This document shows, in pieces, positions 3,709 to 19,195 of a stretch of 64,000 nt of DNA; the stretch's first letter is position 1, and every line of letters starts with the position of its first letter. The DNA is from Anaeromyxobacter diazotrophicus. Its GTDB lineage: Bacteria; Myxococcota; Myxococcia; Myxococcales; Anaeromyxobacteraceae. Both the position numbers and the translations under genes were made by a program. The notes beneath the pieces were generated by a model. That model had not been told where the DNA came from, did no database searches, and saw nothing but the letters and a program-made list of their open reading frames with translations. The stretch covers positions 1-64,000 of the forward strand of contig NZ_BJTG01000002.1 of NCBI RefSeq assembly GCF_013340205.1, in the 5' to 3' direction.

Positions 3709-5553
3709 ATGCTCCTCGCCCCGCTCGCCGCGCTGCAGCTCGCCGCCCTCGCGGCGGCCCCGCCCGCCGCCCTCCACCTCGGGGGCGCGCCGGTGCGCGC
3801 CCGGCTGGAGGTGGTGGCCACGCCCGCCGCGCCCAGCCCCGCCTTCACCTGGCGGAGCGAGGGGGCGGAGCGGGTGGGCGTCGCCGAGGACGCGCGGCTG
3901 CGGGCCACCGTGCGCGTCGCGCCGGCCGGCCCGGGCGCCTTCGAGCTGCGCCTCACCGTCGCCTGGCGGGTGGCGGCGGAGGTGGAGCGCGAGGCGGTGC
4001 GGCTCGTCCTCCCCGGCCCGGCCCGCGCGCTGGGGCGCGACCTCGAGCTCGCCCCGCTGCGCGGGCCCCTGCGGGTGGACCGGGGGACGCCCATCGCCGC
4101 GCTCACCCCGGCGCTGGCGCTGGTCGGCGGGCCGGGGCTCGCCGCCGCGCGCTACACGCCGGCGGGGCGCGAGCTGGAGGTCGACCTCGTCCTCGACGAC
4201 GCCGGGGCGCACCCGTTCGCCGTCTACCCGAGCTGCCTCCCGAGCCTCCCCGGCCTGGCCGAGGGCGCGCCCATCGACTTCGGCCGGCTGGAGCACAAGA
4301 CGTTCCTCGGCCGGACGCACCGCCGCGCCGGGGAGACGGTGGAGGCCCGCGCGACGCTCTTCGCGCTGGCGCCGGGCGCGCCCGCCCACCCGCTCGTGCC
4401 GGAGCGCTGGCCCTCGGGGGCGCAGGCGGCGGTGGTGTTCACCGACCACGCCGACCGCACCGATCCGGCGGCGCTGCGGGCGGTGCTCTACGGCTCGTCG
4501 GCGGCGCCGGGGCCGGTCCCGGTGCGGGGCGGGTTCATCGGGCACGGGGTGCGGCTGACGAAGAGCTTCTTCGTGCGCGCCCGGCGCGGCGGGCTCGAGA
4601 CCGACCCGGAGGCGCGCGCGCTCGCCGAGGCGCTCCGCGCCGCCGGCTCCGAGGTCGCCTCGCACTCCATCACCGGCGGCCCCGACGACCGCGCTGCCGT
4701 CCAGGGCGGGCTCGCGGCGCTCCGGGCGCTAGGCGTGGTGACCTGGATCGACCACGAGCCCTACACGAACTGCGAGGCCATCTCGAGCGAGGGCTGGCGC
4801 GCCGACGGGCGCTACGGGATCCGCGATCTCCTGGCGGGAGCGGGCTTCCGCTGGGTGTGGGAGGCCGGCGACCTGGGGGGCTTCCGGCGCGCCGAGGTGG
4901 TGGACCTCTTCTCGGCGCGGCCGCCGCGCGAGCCGGCGCCGCCCATCTACCCGCTGCCGGTCGACCCGCGCCTGTGGGTGTTCGAGTCGAGCATGTTCTA
5001 CGCGCCGCCGGCGGAGCTGGGGGCGGCGCTCTCCGACGCCGCGCTCGACCGGCTGGAGGCGCGCCGCGGGCTGTTCGTGGCGCACACCTACCTGTCGGCC
5101 TCAGCGCGCACCACCACCCGTCCCGAGCACCTGGCGCGCCTGGCGGTGCGGCCGGGGCCCGGCGGCGCGCTGGTCATCGACCCGGCGCTGGACGCGGCGC
5201 TGGGGCGGCTCGGGGCCCGGGCGCGGGCCGGCCGGCTCGCCTCGCTGACCTGGGCGGAGGCCGGCGACCGGCTGCGCGCGCTCGGCGACCTGCACGTCGC
5301 CTACCTGCCCGACGGCGCCGCCCGGGTCGAGAACCGGGGGCAGGGGCCGCTGCTCGGGCTCACGCTGGCCGCGCCCGCCGAGGTGGAGCTGGCGGTCGAA
5401 GGCGCGGAGGTGATCGGGCGGTCCGTCGGCCCCGGCCGGGCCCGGGTGTGGCTCGACCTCGCGCCGGGGGCGAGCGCGACCGTCCGGGCGCGGCGCGGCG
5501 GGGCACCAGCGCCCTTCCTGCCGGTGGACGCCGGCGCTAGGCTCACCCCGTGA
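3709..5553 (+). CDS. Secreted polysaccharide-deacetylase-like protein
   Basis: The 614-residue product begins with a signal peptide (MLLAPLAALQLAALAAAPPAA), so it is probably exported. An in-frame ATG at 3688 would add seven residues; 3709 is preferred because it puts the hydrophobic core at the N-terminus. Residues 20-230 look like a beta-rich domain. The middle part resembles a NodB/carbohydrate-esterase-4 barrel: VVFTDHADRTD supplies acidic and histidine residues at the end of a strand, and VASHSITGG has the SHS variant of the usual SHT/SHS metal motif. A later HTYLSA segment may give another active-site histidine. The C-terminus is a beta domain. The substrate is unknown. The stop overlaps the GTG of the GNAT gene, so the two are probably translationally coupled. 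The family call is moderate because the catalytic motifs are degenerate. Confidence 0.6.
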   Translation: MLLAPLAALQLAALAAAPPAALHLGGAPVRARLEVVATPAAPSPAFTWRSEGAERVGVAEDARLRATVRVAPAGPGAFELRLTVAWRVAAEVEREAVRLVLPGPARALGRDLELAPLRGPLRVDRGTPIAALTPALALVGGPGLAAARYTPAGRELEVDLVLDDAGAHPFAVYPSCLPSLPGLAEGAPIDFGRLEHKTFLGRTHRRAGETVEARATLFALAPGAPAHPLVPERWPSGAQAAVVFTDHADRTDPAALRAVLYGSSAAPGPVPVRGGFIGHGVRLTKSFFVRARRGGLETDPEARALAEALRAAGSEVASHSITGGPDDRAAVQGGLAALRALGVVTWIDHEPYTNCEAISSEGWRADGRYGIRDLLAGAGFRWVWEAGDLGGFRRAEVVDLFSARPPREPAPPIYPLPVDPRLWVFESSMFYAPPAELGAALSDAALDRLEARRGLFVAHTYLSASARTTTRPEHLARLAVRPGPGGALVIDPALDAALGRLGARARAGRLASLTWAEAGDRLRALGDLHVAYLPDGAARVENRGQGPLLGLTLAAPAEVELAVEGAEVIGRSVGPGRARVWLDLAPGASATVRARRGGAPAPFLPVDAGARLTP

Positions 5554-6008
5554 GCGTTCGCCCGCTGCGCCCCGCCGACGTCCCCGCGCTCGCGCCTGCG
5601 CTGGCCGCGCTGCCGCTCATGGCGCGCTACCGGCGGAGCGCGGACGCGATCGCCGCCGACCTGGCCGCGGCGCTGGCGCGCGGCGACGGGCTCCTCGCCT
5701 GGGAGGCCGGCGGCGAGGCGCGGGGGCTCGCCTGGTTCCTGCGCGAGGGCACGCTGGGGGTGGGCGGGTACCTGCGCCTCATCGCGCTCGCCGAGGGGGC
5801 GCAGGGCGGCGGAGCCGGCGCGGCGCTGCTGGCCGCCTTCGAGGCGGAGGTGGCGAAGGCGAGCCGCCACGCCTTCCTGCTCGTCTCCGACTTCAACGAG
5901 GCGGCCCAGCGCTTCTACGAGCGCCACGGCTACGCCCGCGTCGGCGCGCTGCCAGGGTTCGTGCTGCCGGAGGTGGCGGAGCTCGTCTACTGGCGGCGGC
6001 TCCGCTGA
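5550..6008 (+). CDS. GNAT-family N-acetyltransferase
   Basis: The 152-residue protein has the GCN5-related acetyltransferase fold. The acetyl-CoA pyrophosphate loop is visible as EGAQGGGAGAALL near residues 88-100. A C-terminal block FYERHGYARVG is typical of motif B. These enzymes move an acetyl group from acetyl-CoA to an amine on a small molecule or protein; the acceptor here is unknown. The GTG start shares four bases with the stop of the preceding deacetylase-like gene, which implies coupling and perhaps a shared pathway. A possible -10 element (TAGGCT at 5538-5543) inside the upstream gene could give an additional, nearly leaderless transcript. A perfect hairpin follows the stop. Confidence 0.85.
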   Translation: MSVRPLRPADVPALAPALAALPLMARYRRSADAIAADLAAALARGDGLLAWEAGGEARGLAWFLREGTLGVGGYLRLIALAEGAQGGGAGAALLAAFEAEVAKASRHAFLLVSDFNEAAQRFYERHGYARVGALPGFVLPEVAELVYWRRLR

Positions 6009-6057: not shown

Positions 6058-6257
6058 TTCCCCCGTGCACCTCGCTGGCTGCGTCCAGAAGCCGCAGACC
6101 CCACCGCGTGGTGACTCCGCGCGGGGTGCGGCCGAGGAGCGCGCGCCCAGACGCCTCCCCCCGTCGAGGTCGGCGCGGCGCACGATGGGTGGACGCGGAC
6201 GGGGCGGACGCCCACGCGCGCGGAGCAGGACACCGATCCACCGGGGAGGGAAGGGAC

Positions 6258-8231
6258 ATGCGACACGAGGTCACGAACGCCCTGAGAGGCGCGCTGGCCG
6301 TGGTCGTGGTGCTGGGGGCGAGCTCGGCCCTCGCCAGCGCCGCGAAGCCGGGGCCCAGGCAAGACGTGCCGGCCGCGGCCGAGATGCCGGAGCCGCGCAC
6401 GCTCGAGGGCTACGTCGAGCAGGAGAAGGAGTTCCACGCGTTCCTGAAGAAGAACCACCCGCTCTTCAAGTACGAGCAGGAGGGGCGGCTGGTCGGCAAG
6501 TACCAGATCAGCGACCGCGAGGAGGAGTTCGTCGAATTCGGCGGCGGCAAGGAGTACGAGAAGGAGAACAACCGCCAGGCCTCCATCACCTACCGCCTCG
6601 GGCAGGAGTCCATCCTCGACCTGCCGAACAGGTTCGTCGGCTCGAAGAAGTGCGGGGAGTGCCACCCGGTGCAGTACGAGAAGTGGCTGCGCTCCCGCCA
6701 CAACCTGGTGGTGCGCTTCCCGGACGAGGTGACCGAGGCCCCCGACCTCACCAAGAACCTGTACGGCCAGGCGTCGGTGCTGCCGGACGGCATCACGCCC
6801 GACATGGTCTACGCGGTCATCGGCACCCCGCGCACCAAGTACGGCTTCCTCGACGCGTGGCTCGTGCGCGGCACCTACCACGTCGAGGGCGGCACGCTCC
6901 GCGACCGGACCGGCACGCTGGTCGCGGGCGGGAACCAGAGCTCCCGCACCTGGGCCGAGTCGATCACGCCGGAGGTGGCGAAGACCATCGCCTCCTACGT
7001 CCCGGGCTTCCCCACCAAGCTCGAGGACTTCGGCGACAACGGCTCCGGCCGCTGGGGCATGACCTCCTACGGCGCGAAGAACCGCAAGAGCATGCTCTTC
7101 CAGCCGGCCAGCTCGTACTGCGAGGTCTGCCACTCCTTCAAGTTCGACTTCAAGTCGCAGGCCGAGCTGCTGGCCGCGCTGGGCAATCCGGCCGAGCTGC
7201 GCAAGCACACCATCAACAAGGGCATCAGCTGCGAGGAGTGCCACGGGGCGGGCGCCCACCTCCTCGGCGCGCGCGGCGTCAGCGAGTCGAACTGCGAGCG
7301 CTGCCACCAGCGGTTCGCCTGGTACAAGGACGACGCCGCGAAGGATCCGAAGCGCGGGTTCAACGCCTACTTCAAGAGCCGCTGCCCGTCCTGCGGCACC
7401 GAGGGCTCGCAGTCCTACTACACCGCCCACTCCGACAAGGGTATGCGGTGCGGGACCTGCCACGATCCGCACGAGGTCACCGCCAACGACTGGAAGGACC
7501 CGTACACGGTCCCGGGCCTCAAGAAGCAGTGCCAGGACTGCCACAAGGACCAGCTGGCGTTCTTCGGCAAGAACGACGTCCACGGCGCGAACCGCTGCAC
7601 CAGCTGCCACATGCCGGTGATGATGAGCTGCGAGAACTTCGGCACCATCCAGTTCCCGGACCACGGCGGCTTCGACACCCAGCGCACCTCGCACATCTGG
7701 AAGATCCTGGTGGATCCGGAGGCGAAGACGCTCAACCCGCCCCCGGGCAAGGCGCGCGACGACAAGACCGTCCCGTGGCGGCTCGCCAAGAAGGACGGCA
7801 AGCCGTACCTCGACCTGATGTGGTCCTGCGGTCGCACGAGCTGGGGTGACTCCAGCCTGGCGCAGGCGGGCGGCTGCCACAGCGCCGCCATCTCGAAGCT
7901 GCCCCAGGAGCTGCACTTCAAGAGCCAGCGCCAGATCTACGACAAGGTCATGACCTGGCAGCAGCCGGTGAAGGACGGGCTGAAGCAGGCGAAGGGCGAG
8001 CTGGCCGCGGCCCGCAAGGCGCTCGGCGCGGCGAAGCAGCCCAAGGCGAAGCTGGCCCAGGTGCAGCTGATGGTGAACCAGGCCCAGGAGATCGTCGACG
8101 CGGTCCAGCGCGATGGCTCGTGGGGCGTGCACGCGCCGGCGTACACCCTGCAGCGGGTGAAGGAGGCGCAGCTCCTCGCCGAGGGCGCCCGGGCGACGCT
8201 CTCGGGCAAGGAGAAGCTGGCCACGAGGTGA
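6258..8231 (+). CDS. MccA/SirA-like octaheme c-type cytochrome, putative sulfite reductase
   Basis: The 657-residue product has a Sec signal peptide (hydrophobic run ALAVVVVLGASSALA), so it is periplasmic. Seven CXXCH heme sites start at residues 132, 288, 325, 346, 398, 425 and 447. An eighth site has the unusual form C524-X15-C540-H541. Seven CXXCH sites plus one late CX15CH site is the signature of MccA, the heme c-copper sulfite reductase of Wolinella succinogenes, and of related SirA proteins. Extra cysteines (C376 and C379 in CPSCG, and C458 in SCENFG) could include the copper ligands; this is inference. The C-terminal 110 residues form a long helical region, as in other multiheme reductases. 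The ATG at 6258 has a strong purine-rich ribosome site (GGGAGGGAAGGG). The genes on either side are unrelated, and no cytochrome-specific heme lyase is present. Activity on sulfite is predicted, not shown. Confidence 0.75.
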   Translation: MRHEVTNALRGALAVVVVLGASSALASAAKPGPRQDVPAAAEMPEPRTLEGYVEQEKEFHAFLKKNHPLFKYEQEGRLVGKYQISDREEEFVEFGGGKEYEKENNRQASITYRLGQESILDLPNRFVGSKKCGECHPVQYEKWLRSRHNLVVRFPDEVTEAPDLTKNLYGQASVLPDGITPDMVYAVIGTPRTKYGFLDAWLVRGTYHVEGGTLRDRTGTLVAGGNQSSRTWAESITPEVAKTIASYVPGFPTKLEDFGDNGSGRWGMTSYGAKNRKSMLFQPASSYCEVCHSFKFDFKSQAELLAALGNPAELRKHTINKGISCEECHGAGAHLLGARGVSESNCERCHQRFAWYKDDAAKDPKRGFNAYFKSRCPSCGTEGSQSYYTAHSDKGMRCGTCHDPHEVTANDWKDPYTVPGLKKQCQDCHKDQLAFFGKNDVHGANRCTSCHMPVMMSCENFGTIQFPDHGGFDTQRTSHIWKILVDPEAKTLNPPPGKARDDKTVPWRLAKKDGKPYLDLMWSCGRTSWGDSSLAQAGGCHSAAISKLPQELHFKSQRQIYDKVMTWQQPVKDGLKQAKGELAAARKALGAAKQPKAKLAQVQLMVNQAQEIVDAVQRDGSWGVHAPAYTLQRVKEAQLLAEGARATLSGKEKLATR

Positions 8232-8238
8232 GGCGAGG

Positions 8239-8274
8239 GCGGTCGCGGGGCGCCGCCGTGCGCCCCGCGACCGC
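8239..8274. terminator. Bidirectional hairpin between convergent genes
   Basis: A perfect 15-base-pair stem (8239-8253 with 8260-8274) closes a CGCCGT loop seven bases after the cytochrome stop and twelve before the yfcF stop. There is no T-tract on the plus strand. The position and stability suggest it separates two converging transcripts. Confidence 0.6.
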
Positions 8275-8286
8275 GCCGCCCGGCGC

Positions 8287-8928
8287 TCAGCGCCCCTTCG
8301 GCACGCGCGCCCGCCAGTCCTTCACGCTCGGGCGGTCCCAGACCCGGTGCGCGTAGTCGCGCAGGCGATCCGGCACCGGGTCGCCGTTCGCGACCAGCCG
8401 CTGCAGCATGAGGCCGAGGTCGGCGTCGGCGACGCCGAAGTCGCCGAAGAGCCAGGTGGCGCCCGCGGGCAGGAGCGCCTCGGCGGCGCGCACGACGCGC
8501 TCGGCGGCGGCGCGGCCCGCGGCGCTGAGCGGCTTCACCGGCTCCTTCATGAACACGCTCGAGGTGGGGCGCTCCTCGCGCAGCGGCATGAGATCGCTGC
8601 GGACCCAGGCCTGGACCTGCCGGGCGCGGGCGCGCTCCGCCGGGCGCGCGGGGTACAGGCGCGCGTACCGCGGCGGCGGGAAGACCTCCTCCAGGTACTC
8701 GTCGATGGCGGACGACTCCGCCAGCCAGAGCTCGCCGTGCTGGAGCGAGGGCACGCGGCCGGTGATCGAGCGCGCGCCGTAGTCGCCCTGCCGGTGCTCG
8801 CCGGCGGACAGGTCGAACGTGCGCACCTCGAACGGCAGCCCCTTCTCGGCGAGCGCCACGAAGCAGGAGAACACGTACGGGCTGTAGTAGTTCTTCTCGC
8901 CCCACAGGATCAGCTTCTCTTCCGCCAT
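8287..8928 (-). CDS. yfcF: YfcF-type glutathione S-transferase
   Basis: This 213-residue protein matches Escherichia coli YfcF closely in remembered sequence. Shared blocks include FFSPYV-like YYSPYV near the start, GEHRQGDY, the glutathione-binding ESSAIDEYLE, and QAWVRSDLMPLREERPT. YfcF-type enzymes bind glutathione through an N-terminal thioredoxin fold and have disulfide-bond reductase or peroxidase activity in oxidative stress; they act in the cytoplasm. The ATG at 8928 has a good ribosome site (GGAGGAG). The gene lies 22 bases downstream of the barrel-protein gene and is probably the last gene of a minus-strand operon that also holds the FKBP gene. Confidence 0.9.
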   Translation of the reverse strand: MAEEKLILWGEKNYYSPYVFSCFVALAEKGLPFEVRTFDLSAGEHRQGDYGARSITGRVPSLQHGELWLAESSAIDEYLEEVFPPPRYARLYPARPAERARARQVQAWVRSDLMPLREERPTSSVFMKEPVKPLSAAGRAAAERVVRAAEALLPAGATWLFGDFGVADADLGLMLQRLVANGDPVPDRLRDYAHRVWDRPSVKDWRARVPKGR

Positions 8929-8950: not shown

Positions 8951-9733
8951 CTAGAAGCCGCGGCCGATGATGGTCTTCACGATGAGCTGCTGGTCGGCGC
9001 CGCGCCCGAGGCCGCCGCCGACCGCCAGGTTGATCTCCCACGGCGAGCTGGGCCGGCCGTGCGCCTCCACCAGGTCCACCACGCCGAAGAGGTAATGCGC
9101 CTGCTCGCGCAGCGGCAGGAGGGCGTCCACGAACCCGAGCTCGGCGTAGTACTCGACCCCCACCGCGAAGCCGAGCTGGGAGTTCACGGCCACCTTCGCG
9201 GCCGGCTCCAGCGCCACCCGGAACGCGTCCTTCCCCGACAGCGCGTAGCCGATGATGGGGTTGAGGTCGACGAGCAGCCACCGCCCCTCCCAGCCGACGA
9301 ACGGCCGGAGCTCGTTCGCCCACTGGTCCTGCTCGACCTCGGCCGGCACCCGCCCGACCTCGACGTTCACGCCCAGGAACGAGCCCTCGCCGAACGGGCG
9401 CGGCGCGAGGAACTTGGCCCGCAGCTTCGACCCGGCGTAGCGCACGCCGCGGCCGGGCGCGTCCAGGAGCTGGAGGTAGGCGCCGAGCTCGAGCCAGGGG
9501 GTGACGCCCAGCGCCGGCTCCAGCGTCATCCGGGCGCTGTGCCAGGGCGGGATCTCGCCCGGAAACCCGGGCTGCCGCGCGCCGCGCGCCGTGTAGTTCG
9601 TGTGCAGCTCCAGGCCGAGGTGGCCAGGCTCCTGGAGGTCGCCCTGGTAGACCTGGATCTCGTAGCGGTCGAAGGCGGCGGCCGGCAGGGCGAGGAGCGC
9701 CAGCAGGGCGGCGGTCAGGGGTCGCGCGCGCAT
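8951..9733 (-). CDS. Outer-membrane beta-barrel protein, function unknown
   Basis: The 260-residue product starts with a signal peptide (LTAALLALLALPAAAF) and ends in phenylalanine (IIGRGF), a common last residue of BamA-assembled barrels. The body alternates short amphipathic strands with Gly/Asp turns, for example LELGAYLQLLD and LGFAVGVEYYAELGF. It resembles the small barrels often labelled transporter or MetA-pathway of phenol degradation type, but I recognise no specific family. It lies between an FKBP isomerase gene 25 bases upstream and yfcF 22 bases downstream on the same strand, consistent with one operon. A periplasmic FKBP could help fold it; this is inference. Confidence 0.65.
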   Translation of the reverse strand: MRARPLTAALLALLALPAAAFDRYEIQVYQGDLQEPGHLGLELHTNYTARGARQPGFPGEIPPWHSARMTLEPALGVTPWLELGAYLQLLDAPGRGVRYAGSKLRAKFLAPRPFGEGSFLGVNVEVGRVPAEVEQDQWANELRPFVGWEGRWLLVDLNPIIGYALSGKDAFRVALEPAAKVAVNSQLGFAVGVEYYAELGFVDALLPLREQAHYLFGVVDLVEAHGRPSSPWEINLAVGGGLGRGADQQLIVKTIIGRGF

Positions 9734-9758: not shown

Positions 9759-10421
9759 TCACTTCTTGATGTCGAGGAGCTCGACCTCGAAGACGAGCGT
9801 CGCGCCGCCCGGGATGGTCGGCGGCCGGCCCTCGTCGCCGTACGCGATCGCCGACGGGCACACGAGCTTCGCCTTGCCGCCCACCTTCATCTTGCCCACG
9901 CCCTCGGTCCAGCACTTGATGACCTGGTTGAGGGGGAACTCGGCCGGCTGCCCGCGCTTCACGGAGCTGTCGAAGACCTTCCCGTCGGTGAGGGTGCCGG
10001 TGTAGTGCACCTTCACGGTGTCGGTCGGCTTGGGCTGCGCGCCCTTGCCCTCGTGGATGGGCACGTAGACGAGGCCGGAGGGGCTCTTCTGCGCGCCCTT
10101 CTCCTTGGCGGCCTGGTCCAGGAACGCCTTCGACTTCTCCTTCTGCTTCTCGGCGGTGATCTTCATGCGCGCCTGGGCGAGCTGGTTGATCTTCGGCTGG
10201 TACGCCTCGGGCTCGACCGCCAGCTTCTTCCCGGCGGCGTTGTCGTCGAGGCCCTGCTTCACCATCGCGAACTCGGCCGGCGACAGCCCGAAGACGTCGA
10301 GCTGCTTCCCGATCAGGACGCCGATCGCGTAGAGCGTCTTCTGATCTTCGGACTGGGGCGACTGCGCGCTCGCGCCGGTGGCGAGCGTGAGCGCCAGGGC
10401 GGAGAGGAGGAGCCTGCGCAT
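9759..10421 (-). CDS. FKBP-type peptidyl-prolyl cis-trans isomerase, exported
   Basis: The 220-residue protein has a signal peptide (LLLSALALTLATGASA), an N-terminal helical part with a Lys-rich helix, and a C-terminal FKBP domain from about residue 110. FKBP landmarks are VKVHYTGTLTDGKVFDSS, QVIKCWTEG and the closing IPGGATLVFEVELLDI. This layout is that of Mip/FkpA, dimeric periplasmic chaperones that isomerise X-Pro bonds. ATG 10421 is chosen over an upstream GTG because it is preceded by AAAGGA and starts the signal peptide. Downstream, 25 bases away, is a barrel-protein gene it may serve. Upstream is acs, separated by a terminator-like hairpin. Confidence 0.9.
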   Translation of the reverse strand: MRRLLLSALALTLATGASAQSPQSEDQKTLYAIGVLIGKQLDVFGLSPAEFAMVKQGLDDNAAGKKLAVEPEAYQPKINQLAQARMKITAEKQKEKSKAFLDQAAKEKGAQKSPSGLVYVPIHEGKGAQPKPTDTVKVHYTGTLTDGKVFDSSVKRGQPAEFPLNQVIKCWTEGVGKMKVGGKAKLVCPSAIAYGDEGRPPTIPGGATLVFEVELLDIKK

Positions 10422-10525
10422 CGGGGATCCTTTCGGGGTCGTCCGGCCGTCCGGCCCGACCACACGGAGAGTAGAAATGGCGGCGGCTCATCATGGCCCG
10501 CCGCCGCCGCCGCCGCAACGAAATC

Positions 10526-16547: not shown

Positions 16548-17675
16548 CTAGCCGTTCGTGTGGCACGCCATGCACATCGCGTTCTTCCGGATGTCCCCGT
16601 GGTTGTGCTTCGACAGGAAGCTCGACGGGTGGATGTTCACGTTGGCGATGCCGGGGACGCGGTGGCAGTTGACGCAGATGGCCGCGGGGCCCTGGTCGTG
16701 GCAGGCGGCGCAGGCCACGATGTTCTGGCGAGCGGCGGTGCCGTGGAACTCTGCCCCCTTGCTCGTGTCGTTGGCCCAGCCGAGCGGGTGCGGGTTGCGC
16801 GCGGTGCGGCCGCCCACGTTGCTGCGCGGGGAGACGCCCTGCTCCTTGTGGCAGCTGTCGCAGAAGAAGGAGCCGTGGCACTTGCGGCAGCTGGCCGGGT
16901 CGGCCGAGGCCTCGATCTGGTGCCGGGAGACGTAGTCACCGCGGTGGATGAAGTCGGCCTCGACGCGCTCGGGGAAGCGGATCTCCGGGCGGAAGGGGAC
17001 GGTCGCGGTGGCGTGGCAGGTCGCGCAGTAGGTCTGGTCGTGGCACTGGGCGCAGGTCTCGGCGCCGTTCTTGGCGACGTTGCGGTGCTCGCGGATCCAG
17101 TTGCCCTGGTGCGACATGGCCGCCAGCGCCTCGATCGGCTTCAGCGGATAGCGGCGCAGGCTCACGTGGCACGGCGAGCACTTCGCCTGGGCCACGTCCT
17201 GCTGGTGCTGGTGGCAGGCGGTGCAGGTCGCCATGGCCGGCGTGATGTCGCGGACCGTCCCGGCCTCGGGCAGCACCTTGTGGCAGGTCGCGCAGGCCTG
17301 GTTGATCTCCTTGGTCTTGATCCGCTTCAGGTGGTCGTCGTGGTTGAAGCTGATCTGGTACTCGCGCACCGGGCGCTGGCTCGCGGCGGCGGCGGCGGCC
17401 GCGGCCTTGCGGGTCGGCTCGTCGGTGGGCTTCGAGATCTCCGGGTGGCACTCCTCGCACTTCACCACCGAGGGCAGCTTCGCCTCACCGAGCTTCTGCG
17501 CCTTGGGGATGCCGGTGTGGCAGTCGACGCAGTCGAACCCGCCGTGCTTCTCGTGGGTGAAGAGGCTCGCGCGCGCCTCCTCGTGCGTGTCGGCCGAGAC
17601 GGGGCGCGTGTTCTTGCACCCCGAGACGAGGCCGACGGCGAGGGCGGCCAGCATGAGCGTGCGGACGGTCTTCAT
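16548..17675 (-). CDS. Dodecaheme (12-heme) c-type cytochrome lipoprotein
   Basis: The 375-residue protein has a lipoprotein signal (LMLAALAVGLVSGC, lipobox LVSGC) and twelve CXXCH heme sites, in order CVDCH, CEECH, CATCH, CTACH, CSPCH, CAQCH, CATCH, CRKCH, CDSCH, CAACH, CVNCH and CMACH. Many extra histidines (for example SFNHDDH, FTHEKH) can serve as distal heme ligands. Twelve-heme lipoproteins such as Geobacter OmcB sit on the outer membrane in porin-cytochrome conduits that carry electrons to extracellular acceptors. The start ATG at 17675 shares one base with the stop of the porin gene (TGATG), so the two proteins are coupled. An Ala-rich run (residues 90-98) is a flexible linker. There is no separate periplasmic cytochrome gene beside it. 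Surface exposure and substrate are inferred. Confidence 0.88.
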   Translation of the reverse strand: MKTVRTLMLAALAVGLVSGCKNTRPVSADTHEEARASLFTHEKHGGFDCVDCHTGIPKAQKLGEAKLPSVVKCEECHPEISKPTDEPTRKAAAAAAAASQRPVREYQISFNHDDHLKRIKTKEINQACATCHKVLPEAGTVRDITPAMATCTACHQHQQDVAQAKCSPCHVSLRRYPLKPIEALAAMSHQGNWIREHRNVAKNGAETCAQCHDQTYCATCHATATVPFRPEIRFPERVEADFIHRGDYVSRHQIEASADPASCRKCHGSFFCDSCHKEQGVSPRSNVGGRTARNPHPLGWANDTSKGAEFHGTAARQNIVACAACHDQGPAAICVNCHRVPGIANVNIHPSSFLSKHNHGDIRKNAMCMACHTNG

Positions 17676-18976
17676 CACCGCACCTCCCGCACCGCGTAGG
17701 TCTGGTCGTAGACGAGCTTGGCCATGACGTCGAACTGGCTCTCCATGTATGGCGTGGTGCCGACGGATCCGGCGACCGCCGCGCGCCAGCCCTGCCACAG
17801 CGGGTAGCCGAGGGTGGCGGTGGCGAGGAGCGACTTCTTCACGCCGTTGATCGCGCCGTCGTAGAAGTAACCGTTGAGGTCGAGAGTGCCGGTCACCTGG
17901 TAGAGCTGCTTGGCGCCGAAGAGCCGGACCTGCTTGTAGCCGTTGTCGAGCGAGGCGGCGTTCTTCAGGTAGCCGAGCTCGAGGCCGGCGGTGGTGGAGG
18001 CGCCGCCCGGGTGCGCGGTGCCCTTCACGCGCGCCCAGTGGCCGTGGCCCGCGTCCTCGATGAGGAAGTGGTAGTCGGCGTCGATCGCGACCAGCTTGAG
18101 GCCGGTGAAGTGGACCGCGCCGCCCACGTCGTTGCGCTTGTCGGCGGCGAAGACCGCCAGGATGGAGTTGCGCGCCAGGAACAGGTCGGGCTCGACGTGC
18201 CGGTAGTCGACCGTGACGTCGAGGTGCTGCACGGGGAAGACCTGCGCCGCGACGGCCGCCTCGCCGATCCGGTCCTCGAACAGGCTCCAGAAGCCGGAGC
18301 CGGTGAGGGCGACGAGGTGGTGCGGGGTGAGCTTGAAGTCCACGCCGACGTCCTGCCGGGCCCAGTCGCCGTGGTCGGTCGCCATCGCGACCGACGCGCC
18401 GACGTCGAGCAGCCCGGGGTAGCGCCAGGCGGCGCGGCCGCCGGTGGTGAACGTGGCGCCGAGGTTTCCGACCACCTCGGTGCCGCCGCGGGTGCTGAAG
18501 CGCGGCGCGACCGGGGACCCCGCGTACCCCGACAGCGTGAAGTTGGCGGGGAGCCTCACCTCGGCCGACCCGCCGTCGATCTGGACCATCCGGGCCGTGC
18601 CGTCGGCGATGAGCTGGCGGCCCAGGCGGAGCGTCAGCGCGCGGTCGAGGACGTCCGCGCGGATGAACCCGACGTTCACGTCGCCCGTGAAGCGGCTGTC
18701 GGTGAGCGCGCCGCCCTGCCAGAAGCGCTTGTCGGCGAGATCGATCGAGCCCCAGCTCGAGAGCGCCACCTCGAAGTCGGCGTAGCGCGTGTGGACGTCG
18801 CTCGCGGCGACGTCGATGAGCTCGTAGGCCGGGACCGCCGTGATGGTGCTGCCATCTCGGAAGTCCTGCCGGCCGAGCAGCATGGTCGTCGAGCTGGCCC
18901 GCACCGTGTCGGCGCTGGCAGCGCCGGCGACCGCGAGCGCGGCGGCGAACACTGTGAGTCGAAGCCGGTTCATCAT
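17675..18976 (-). CDS. Outer-membrane porin-like protein of a cytochrome conduit
   Basis: The 433-residue protein has a signal peptide (LTVFAAALAVAGAASA) and long alternating amphipathic strands, for example HLDVTVDYRHVEPDLFL and GLKLVAIDADYHFLIED, ending in a strand LVYDQTYAVREVR. It has no CXXC or heme motif, so it is not MtrB with its CXXC. Its strand density fits a barrel of 16 or more strands. It is directly coupled to the 12-heme lipoprotein gene, which is the arrangement of porin-cytochrome conduits that insulate heme chains across the outer membrane. ATG 18976 has GAGGA eight bases upstream; a second ATG follows directly. Specific family membership was not tested. Confidence 0.7.
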   Translation of the reverse strand: MMNRLRLTVFAAALAVAGAASADTVRASSTTMLLGRQDFRDGSTITAVPAYELIDVAASDVHTRYADFEVALSSWGSIDLADKRFWQGGALTDSRFTGDVNVGFIRADVLDRALTLRLGRQLIADGTARMVQIDGGSAEVRLPANFTLSGYAGSPVAPRFSTRGGTEVVGNLGATFTTGGRAAWRYPGLLDVGASVAMATDHGDWARQDVGVDFKLTPHHLVALTGSGFWSLFEDRIGEAAVAAQVFPVQHLDVTVDYRHVEPDLFLARNSILAVFAADKRNDVGGAVHFTGLKLVAIDADYHFLIEDAGHGHWARVKGTAHPGGASTTAGLELGYLKNAASLDNGYKQVRLFGAKQLYQVTGTLDLNGYFYDGAINGVKKSLLATATLGYPLWQGWRAAVAGSVGTTPYMESQFDVMAKLVYDQTYAVREVR

Positions 18977-19195
18977 CGGTGGTATCCTCGAGTGAATCGC
19001 GACGTGCCCTCGAGCGGTCGTCGTCCGGGCCGCCCAGGCCAGGGATTCAGCCCCCTGGATCGAAGCGAGCGCTCGCTCCGGCCAGGGCGGGTCGGACGAT
19101 GGCATAGTGGGCTCCACCGTTTCCTGACCAAAATCAATTCACTGCGTGTTTCCTCACGAATTCTCGGGGCGTGACCCATGGGTTCGCGCTAACAT
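18977..19195. promoter_or_regulatory. Divergent control region of porin-cytochrome and thioredoxin genes
   Basis: This 219-base gap holds the start regions of two divergent transcripts. It contains one of the more AT-rich stretches of the window (around 19125-19165, including CAAAATCAATTCA). On the plus strand TAACAT at 19190-19195 is a possible -10 element just before the thioredoxin start. I find no convincing operator palindrome or sigma-54 site. Confidence 0.5.

Follow-up and report, generated by a model that had tools for sequence, protein, structure and literature searches.

A lone mccA-type octaheme cytochrome gene in Anaeromyxobacter diazotrophicus and a candidate distant synthase for its CX15CH haem site

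Background

A reading frame near one end of a contig of Anaeromyxobacter diazotrophicus was noticed, from the letters alone, to encode an octaheme cytochrome resembling the MccA sulfite reductase, with seven ordinary haem-attachment sites, one CX15CH site and no haem lyase gene beside it. Sites of this unusual kind need a dedicated synthase in the organisms in which they have been studied, namely CcsA1 in Wolinella and SirE in Shewanella (PMC6976685). The locus raises two questions: is the protein a true MccA, and, if so, which synthase attaches haem to its eighth site?

We analyzed the window (the whole stretch of 64,000 nucleotides, from contig C2 of the assembly) together with the rest of the source genome, which comprises 17 contigs and is estimated to be 100% complete. 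Our combined reading, drawn from sequence comparisons and given a probability of roughly 0.6, is that the gene would encode an MccA of the active type, that it arrived as a single-gene insertion and that its haem 8 would be attached by a fused CcsBA encoded on another contig.

Results and discussion

An MccA-type octaheme cytochrome

The gene, mccA, is a single intact open reading frame, and its coordinates and residue numbers agree with those first reported for it. Its features are as follows.

6243..6250, + strand: Shine-Dalgarno-like GGGGAGGG upstream of the mccA ATG at 6258 (from sequence)
6258..8231, + strand: mccA, octaheme cytochrome c of the MccA sulfite reductase family, 657 aa
7392..7394, + strand: codon of Cys379, first predicted Cu(I) ligand; aligned with 4rkm_A position 411, identical in 23 of 23 sequences
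7629..7631, + strand: codon of Cys458, second predicted Cu(I) ligand; aligned with 4rkm_A position 507, identical in 23 of 23
7827..7880, + strand: CX15CH haem-8 attachment site, C524-X15-C540-H541; aligned with Wolinella MccA, identical in 23 of 23
8239..8274, + strand: GC-rich hairpin with a perfect 15-bp stem, 3' of the mccA stop and between the convergent mccA and GST genes (from sequence and folding)

The seven CXXCH sites (CGECH, CEVCH, CEECH, CERCH, CGTCH, CQDCH and CTSCH) and the CX15CH site, eighth and last in sequence order, are present exactly as first described, and all eight align with those of Wolinella MccA. A chance origin of the CX15CH pattern is excluded by its site-for-site alignment with Wolinella MccA and by the identity of C524, C540 and H541 in all 23 MccA sequences. 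The copper-cysteine pair of MccA also has its counterpart: the positions of 4rkm_A with which Cys379 and Cys458 align are, after subtraction of a constant offset of 12, presumably the MccA copper ligands Cys399 and Cys495. Altogether, 18 cysteines (14 in CXXCH sites, two in the CX15CH site and two as copper ligands) are invariant across the 23 proteins wherever sequence is present. An extra cysteine, Cys376, varies among the same sequences and serves as an internal control.

The sole relative of the protein in the PDB is Wolinella MccA (4rkm/4rkn; E value 4e-198, 663 bits, residues 48-637), with about 52% identity over 590 residues; identity to three relatives is 71-72%. Judged by these alignments, which strongly support the assignment made in the sequence-only reading, the product truly belongs to the MccA family. 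The resemblance to MccA could be superficial and the protein could belong to another octaheme family (HAO, ONR or OTR), given that NrfA-type C-terminal helices are common to those families and MccA and that the protein has a weak match to Pfam Cytochrom_C552. We consider the probability of this to be negligible, and we rule these families out, because MccA is the only PDB match, at the E value given above, and because the CX15CH site and the copper-cysteine pair are both present and invariant. An AlphaFold model was poor (mean pLDDT 46.9) and was left unused.

With its apparent Sec-type signal peptide, the product looks like a secreted or periplasmic protein. The hairpin 3' of the stop codon (MFE -56.4 kcal/mol, z -3.6) is, from its sequence, a probable bidirectional terminator for mccA and the GST gene. 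Its location between the two convergent genes suggests that mccA is transcribed alone and is probably monocistronic.

A single gene at an otherwise conserved junction

The immediate neighbours of mccA are the following.

5550..6008, + strand: GNAT acetyltransferase, left flank of the mccA insertion (Pfam; adjoins the GST gene without mccA in the relative G007)
8287..8928, - strand: glutathione S-transferase (GST), right flank of the mccA insertion (Pfam; synteny with G007)
8951-9733: 260-aa protein with no Pfam or NCBIfam family match

The GNAT and GST genes named in the sequence-only reading are confirmed by Pfam, and the 260-aa protein is its third neighbour, there called a barrel protein. 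GNAT, which is part of the core synteny, and GST are probably unrelated to MccA function. In G007, a relative that has no MccA, genes for a deacetylase-like protein, GNAT and GST occur in the identical order, and alignments place only 18 bp between GNAT and GST. In the window, 2.3 kb with mccA separate the two genes at this junction. Carriers of mccA make up four of the 195 Myxococcota genomes searched: the source genome and three of another genus in the same family, including Anaeromyxobacter sp. PSR-1. In these other carriers, mccA is located at other sites. In its simplest reading, the locus looks like a single-gene gain of mccA between GNAT and GST; the empty site is seen in G007, and we infer the direction to be gain here rather than loss elsewhere. 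A check for plasmid carriage gave no match.

No lyase, NrfD or FeS gene adjoins mccA, and mccBCD are also absent there. A whole-genome search for the WWD/Cytochrom_C_asm family found matches only on contigs C5 and C6 and none on C2, so that the lack of an adjacent lyase, as first reported, holds true; with a WWD motif scan, this search also rules out a lyase hidden within the window. The window begins at the end of contig C2, with 6.2 kb upstream of mccA visible. A hidden adjacent lyase is unlikely, because the upstream genes are kept next to GST in the mccA-free G007.

Two further features of the window deserve mention. An FKBP-type peptidyl-prolyl isomerase gene (9759-10463, - strand) lies 1.5 kb from mccA, and its product has the same FKBP_N domain make-up as Sulfurospirillum MccB. 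We rejected it as an MccB: the FKBP gene and the acetyl-CoA synthetase (Acs) gene to the right of mccA are core synteny that is conserved also in MccA-negative relatives, and the proximity is probably coincidence. Farther along, a 416-aa protein with 12 CXXCH sites (16548-17798, - strand) is encoded beside a 480-aa protein without a Pfam match (17675-19117, - strand). PDB matches are weak and are to cytochrome c7-like chains; a multihaem conduit plus its partner is one possibility.

Lone mccA genes in other genomes

A pattern-based scan of a genome collection, which was not exhaustive (for example, no Shewanella was recovered), yielded 24 MccA loci. In Campylobacterota, a synthase of the CcsBA type (873-900 aa in complete copies) is encoded about 4.5 kb past the mccA start, downstream of genes for an FKBP-type isomerase, an FeS protein and an NrfD protein. 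Leminorella has a CcmF-type gene near mccA. No gene with a WWD motif occurs in the flanks, mostly of about 10 kb, of mccA in Anaeromyxobacter, five Holophagaceae, two Geobacteraceae, two other Acidobacteriota and Edwardsiella. A lone mccA is thus the rule in the MccA branch in which a tree places the present protein, and an adjacent haem lyase does not define the enzyme. Although the lyase is indeed missing from the locus, its absence is therefore no anomaly, since the arrangement recurs in loci of the same branch.

Several other neighbours of mccA were observed during the scan. In Edwardsiella hoshinae, the membrane gene (L067 9019-9807) next to that for MccA/SirA is of the cytochrome b561 type, not NrfD, and represents a different quinol connection. 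A C_GCAxxG_C_C redox protein is a recurring neighbour, encoded upstream of mccA in one Geobacteraceae locus (L062 9024-9845) and one Acidobacteriota locus (L064 7854-8636). In two Acidobacteriota (L064 12551-13507, L065 12677-13597), mccA is followed by a gene for a membrane protein of PF03601 (conserved hypothetical protein 698), for which sulfur oxyanion transport would be a guess. In one Geobacteraceae locus (L063 10057-11064), a PPIC-type prolyl isomerase gene follows mccA; its family differs from that of the FKBP-type MccB, and convergent use of a prolyl isomerase beside mccA is possible.

Haem synthases in the genome

The source genome has three Cytochrom_C_asm genes, two of which are System II synthases, both encoded on contigs other than C2. 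One of the two is a fused protein.

C6:206676-208955: fused CcsBA, 760 aa (Pfam ResB + Cytochrom_C_asm)

The other is a split ResB/CcsA pair on C5, and the third gene, on C6, encodes a HemX/CcmC-like protein of 289 aa. The whole-genome search for the Cytochrom_C_asm family found no CcmF. The fused CcsBA has an intact WWD motif (WGRYWGWD) and matches the solved CcsBA 7s9y at 3e-72.

Family NrfA proteins have five CXXCH sites and no CXXCK (those of G009 and G013 were not read cleanly), which argues against an NrfI role of the fused CcsBA at a CXXCK site. Some MccA-negative genomes have multihaem genes next to CcsBA, and these encode ordinary CXXCH sites only. In the source genome, the NrfA-type protein is encoded on C2 (G000:C2:259622-261121; L203 7608-9296) and is of the same type as those of the cleanly read relatives.

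A fused CcsBA that follows MccA

If mccA and a particular CcsBA were inherited together, the phylogeny of CcsBA should follow that of MccA. The fused CcsBAs of the four MccA-positive genomes are 70-72% identical between genera, and those of ten MccA-negative family members are only about 57-63% identical to the copy in the source genome. In another ten MccA-negative members, including the same-genus G001, a fused CcsBA was not found; for the near-complete genomes G021 and G022 of the PSR-1 genus, this absence refers to the matches listed at 1e-100 or better. In a tree, the CcsBA copies of the MccA-positive family members form one clade across genus lines (support 100/99) with no MccA-negative relative inside, and a tree that holds the PSR-1 genus together for CcsBA was rejected (p-AU 1.1e-5). 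The split CcsA, used as a control gene, keeps that genus together, albeit weakly (83/70). The MccA tree groups the same four genomes (support 94/97). In all four, mccA and ccsBA are not neighbours.

It appears that this particular CcsBA entered the genomes, or persisted in them, together with mccA; the sample is small, amounting effectively to two lineages, because the CcsBAs of three of the four are almost identical. On balance, we favour the fused CcsBA as the best candidate for attachment of haem 8. The sequence-only reading had left the site either to a general system or to a lyase encoded far away, and the match between the CcsBA and MccA phylogenies favours the latter.

A general synthase might nonetheless suffice. 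An active MccA could be loaded by the split ResB/CcsA at its CX15CH site as well as at its CXXCH sites, without a dedicated lyase, and the link with CcsBA would then be a by-product of shared ancestry or of co-acquired cytochromes. All family genomes checked have the split ResB/CcsA. Four of the five MccA-positive Holophagaceae MAGs show only non-fused CcsA-type genes, or none, so that either these MAGs are incomplete or a general synthase can suffice. The fifth has a fused CcsBA of a different clade; fused CcsBAs of other clades also occur in MccA-negative relatives, and the protein type is thus not specific to MccA. In some organisms, moreover, a general synthase serves atypical sites: the CXXCK site of NrfA in S. 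oneidensis seems to be handled by CcmF together with CcmI (PMC6976685). However, the synthases known for the site at issue, Wolinella CcsA1 and Shewanella SirE, are dedicated ones, and the CcsBA clade of MccA-positive genomes cuts across the genera just as MccA does. We regard loading by the general pair as less likely.

The fused CcsBA, our preferred candidate, lies outside the CcsA1 clade of Campylobacterota, on a separate branch with 100/100 support. It also shares no specificity residues with CcsA1 beyond those in the control (one versus two in the control). A tentative extension, on which we would not bet at even odds, is that the fused CcsBA of Anaeromyxobacteraceae represents a second, independently evolved class of System II synthase capable of acting on CX15CH, which gained its specificity separately, is unlinked to its substrate gene and travels with mccA between genera.

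Proposed function and electron supply

In the proposed mechanism, System II would supply seven haems to the CXXCH sites of a periplasmic MccA, and haem 8 would most likely be attached by the fused CcsBA. Electrons would pass through the haem chain to haem 2 and to Cu(I) held by Cys379 and Cys458, as in Wolinella, and sulfite would be reduced to sulfide in a six-electron reaction. In MccA, the catalytic haem is haem 2 (PMC6703420), which is not the one at the CX15CH site. That the protein would reduce sulfite is suggested by the conservation of every known cofactor-binding cysteine.

Because the mccBCD module is lacking, electrons from quinol would probably reach MccA via a shared periplasmic carrier, for example a tetraheme cytochrome of the NrfH/NapC type. 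A protein with four CXXCH sites is encoded next to the NrfA-type gene on C2 (L203); it may be a quinol oxidase of the NrfH type and serve MccA as well. The genome encodes just one MccD-like NrfD protein (31% identity, 9e-15), also on C2, and this was ruled out as an MccD, as it lies near and belongs with a PhsA-like molybdoenzyme.

The protein might resemble MccA without being a respiratory sulfite reductase in this organism: haem 8 might be missing, the substrate might be another oxyanion, the role might be detoxification or the gene might be a decaying passenger. The lack of an adjoining quinol-dehydrogenase module, the position of the sole NrfD-like MccD relative by a molybdoenzyme and the rare and patchy distribution of mccA would fit such a role. 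We consider it improbable, because every cysteine that would bind haem or copper is intact and invariant and because the gene is intact across two genera at 72% identity; this conservation argues for purifying selection on the MccA active site.

Respiratory or detoxifying, MccA-type sulfite reduction would be a little-recognised trait of this metal-reducing myxobacterial family, to which the enzyme type is here extended. The sequence-only reading held that it would be a new respiratory trait if confirmed, but within the family it would not be new, as Anaeromyxobacter sp. PSR-1 (L066) has the same gene. Our search of the open literature found nothing on MccA in Anaeromyxobacter, and an earlier mention is possible. 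The locus also shows that mccA can occur alone, without electron-transfer genes or a lyase, and that it can probably move between genomes in this form. The genome has just two synthases, of which one is found throughout the family and the other tracks MccA, so that acceptance of the CX15CH site is reduced to a two-gene question.

Comparison with known systems

The closest characterized relative, the haem c-copper sulfite reductase MccA of Wolinella succinogenes (4rkm, 4rkn), belongs to the same length class and has the same set of seven CXXCH sites, CX15CH site and copper-cysteine pair, at about 52% identity. In Campylobacterota, mccA is followed by genes for an FKBP-type isomerase (mccB), an FeS protein, an NrfD-type protein and CcsA1, whereas here mccA stands alone. 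Genes of the mccBCD or sirCD kind characterize the clusters that have been studied rather than the enzyme itself.

SirA of Shewanella oneidensis (sirACD, with maturation by SirEFG and CcmI), which we compared by description, is an octaheme sulfite reductase with an atypical site, CX12NKGCH, of the same spacing (PMC6976685). However, SirA relies on a System I component, the CcmF-type SirE, from its own cluster, whereas the source genome has no CcmF. The MccAs of Anaeromyxobacter sp. PSR-1 and of the Holophagaceae MAGs (L057-L061) are about 70% identical to the present protein, with all cofactor cysteines conserved; their loci, like that of the source genome, have no WWD lyase within about 10 kb, although their genomic neighbours differ.

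Among fused System II synthases (CcsBA 7s9y, Campylobacterota CcsA1, NrfI and CcsA2), the candidate on C6 has the same fusion of ResB with CcsA and the WWD motif. It differs from CcsA1 in forming its own clade, in being shorter (760 versus 870-900 aa) and in being unlinked to mccA. The enzyme is of a known kind, and a distant lyase for it is a plausible proposal.
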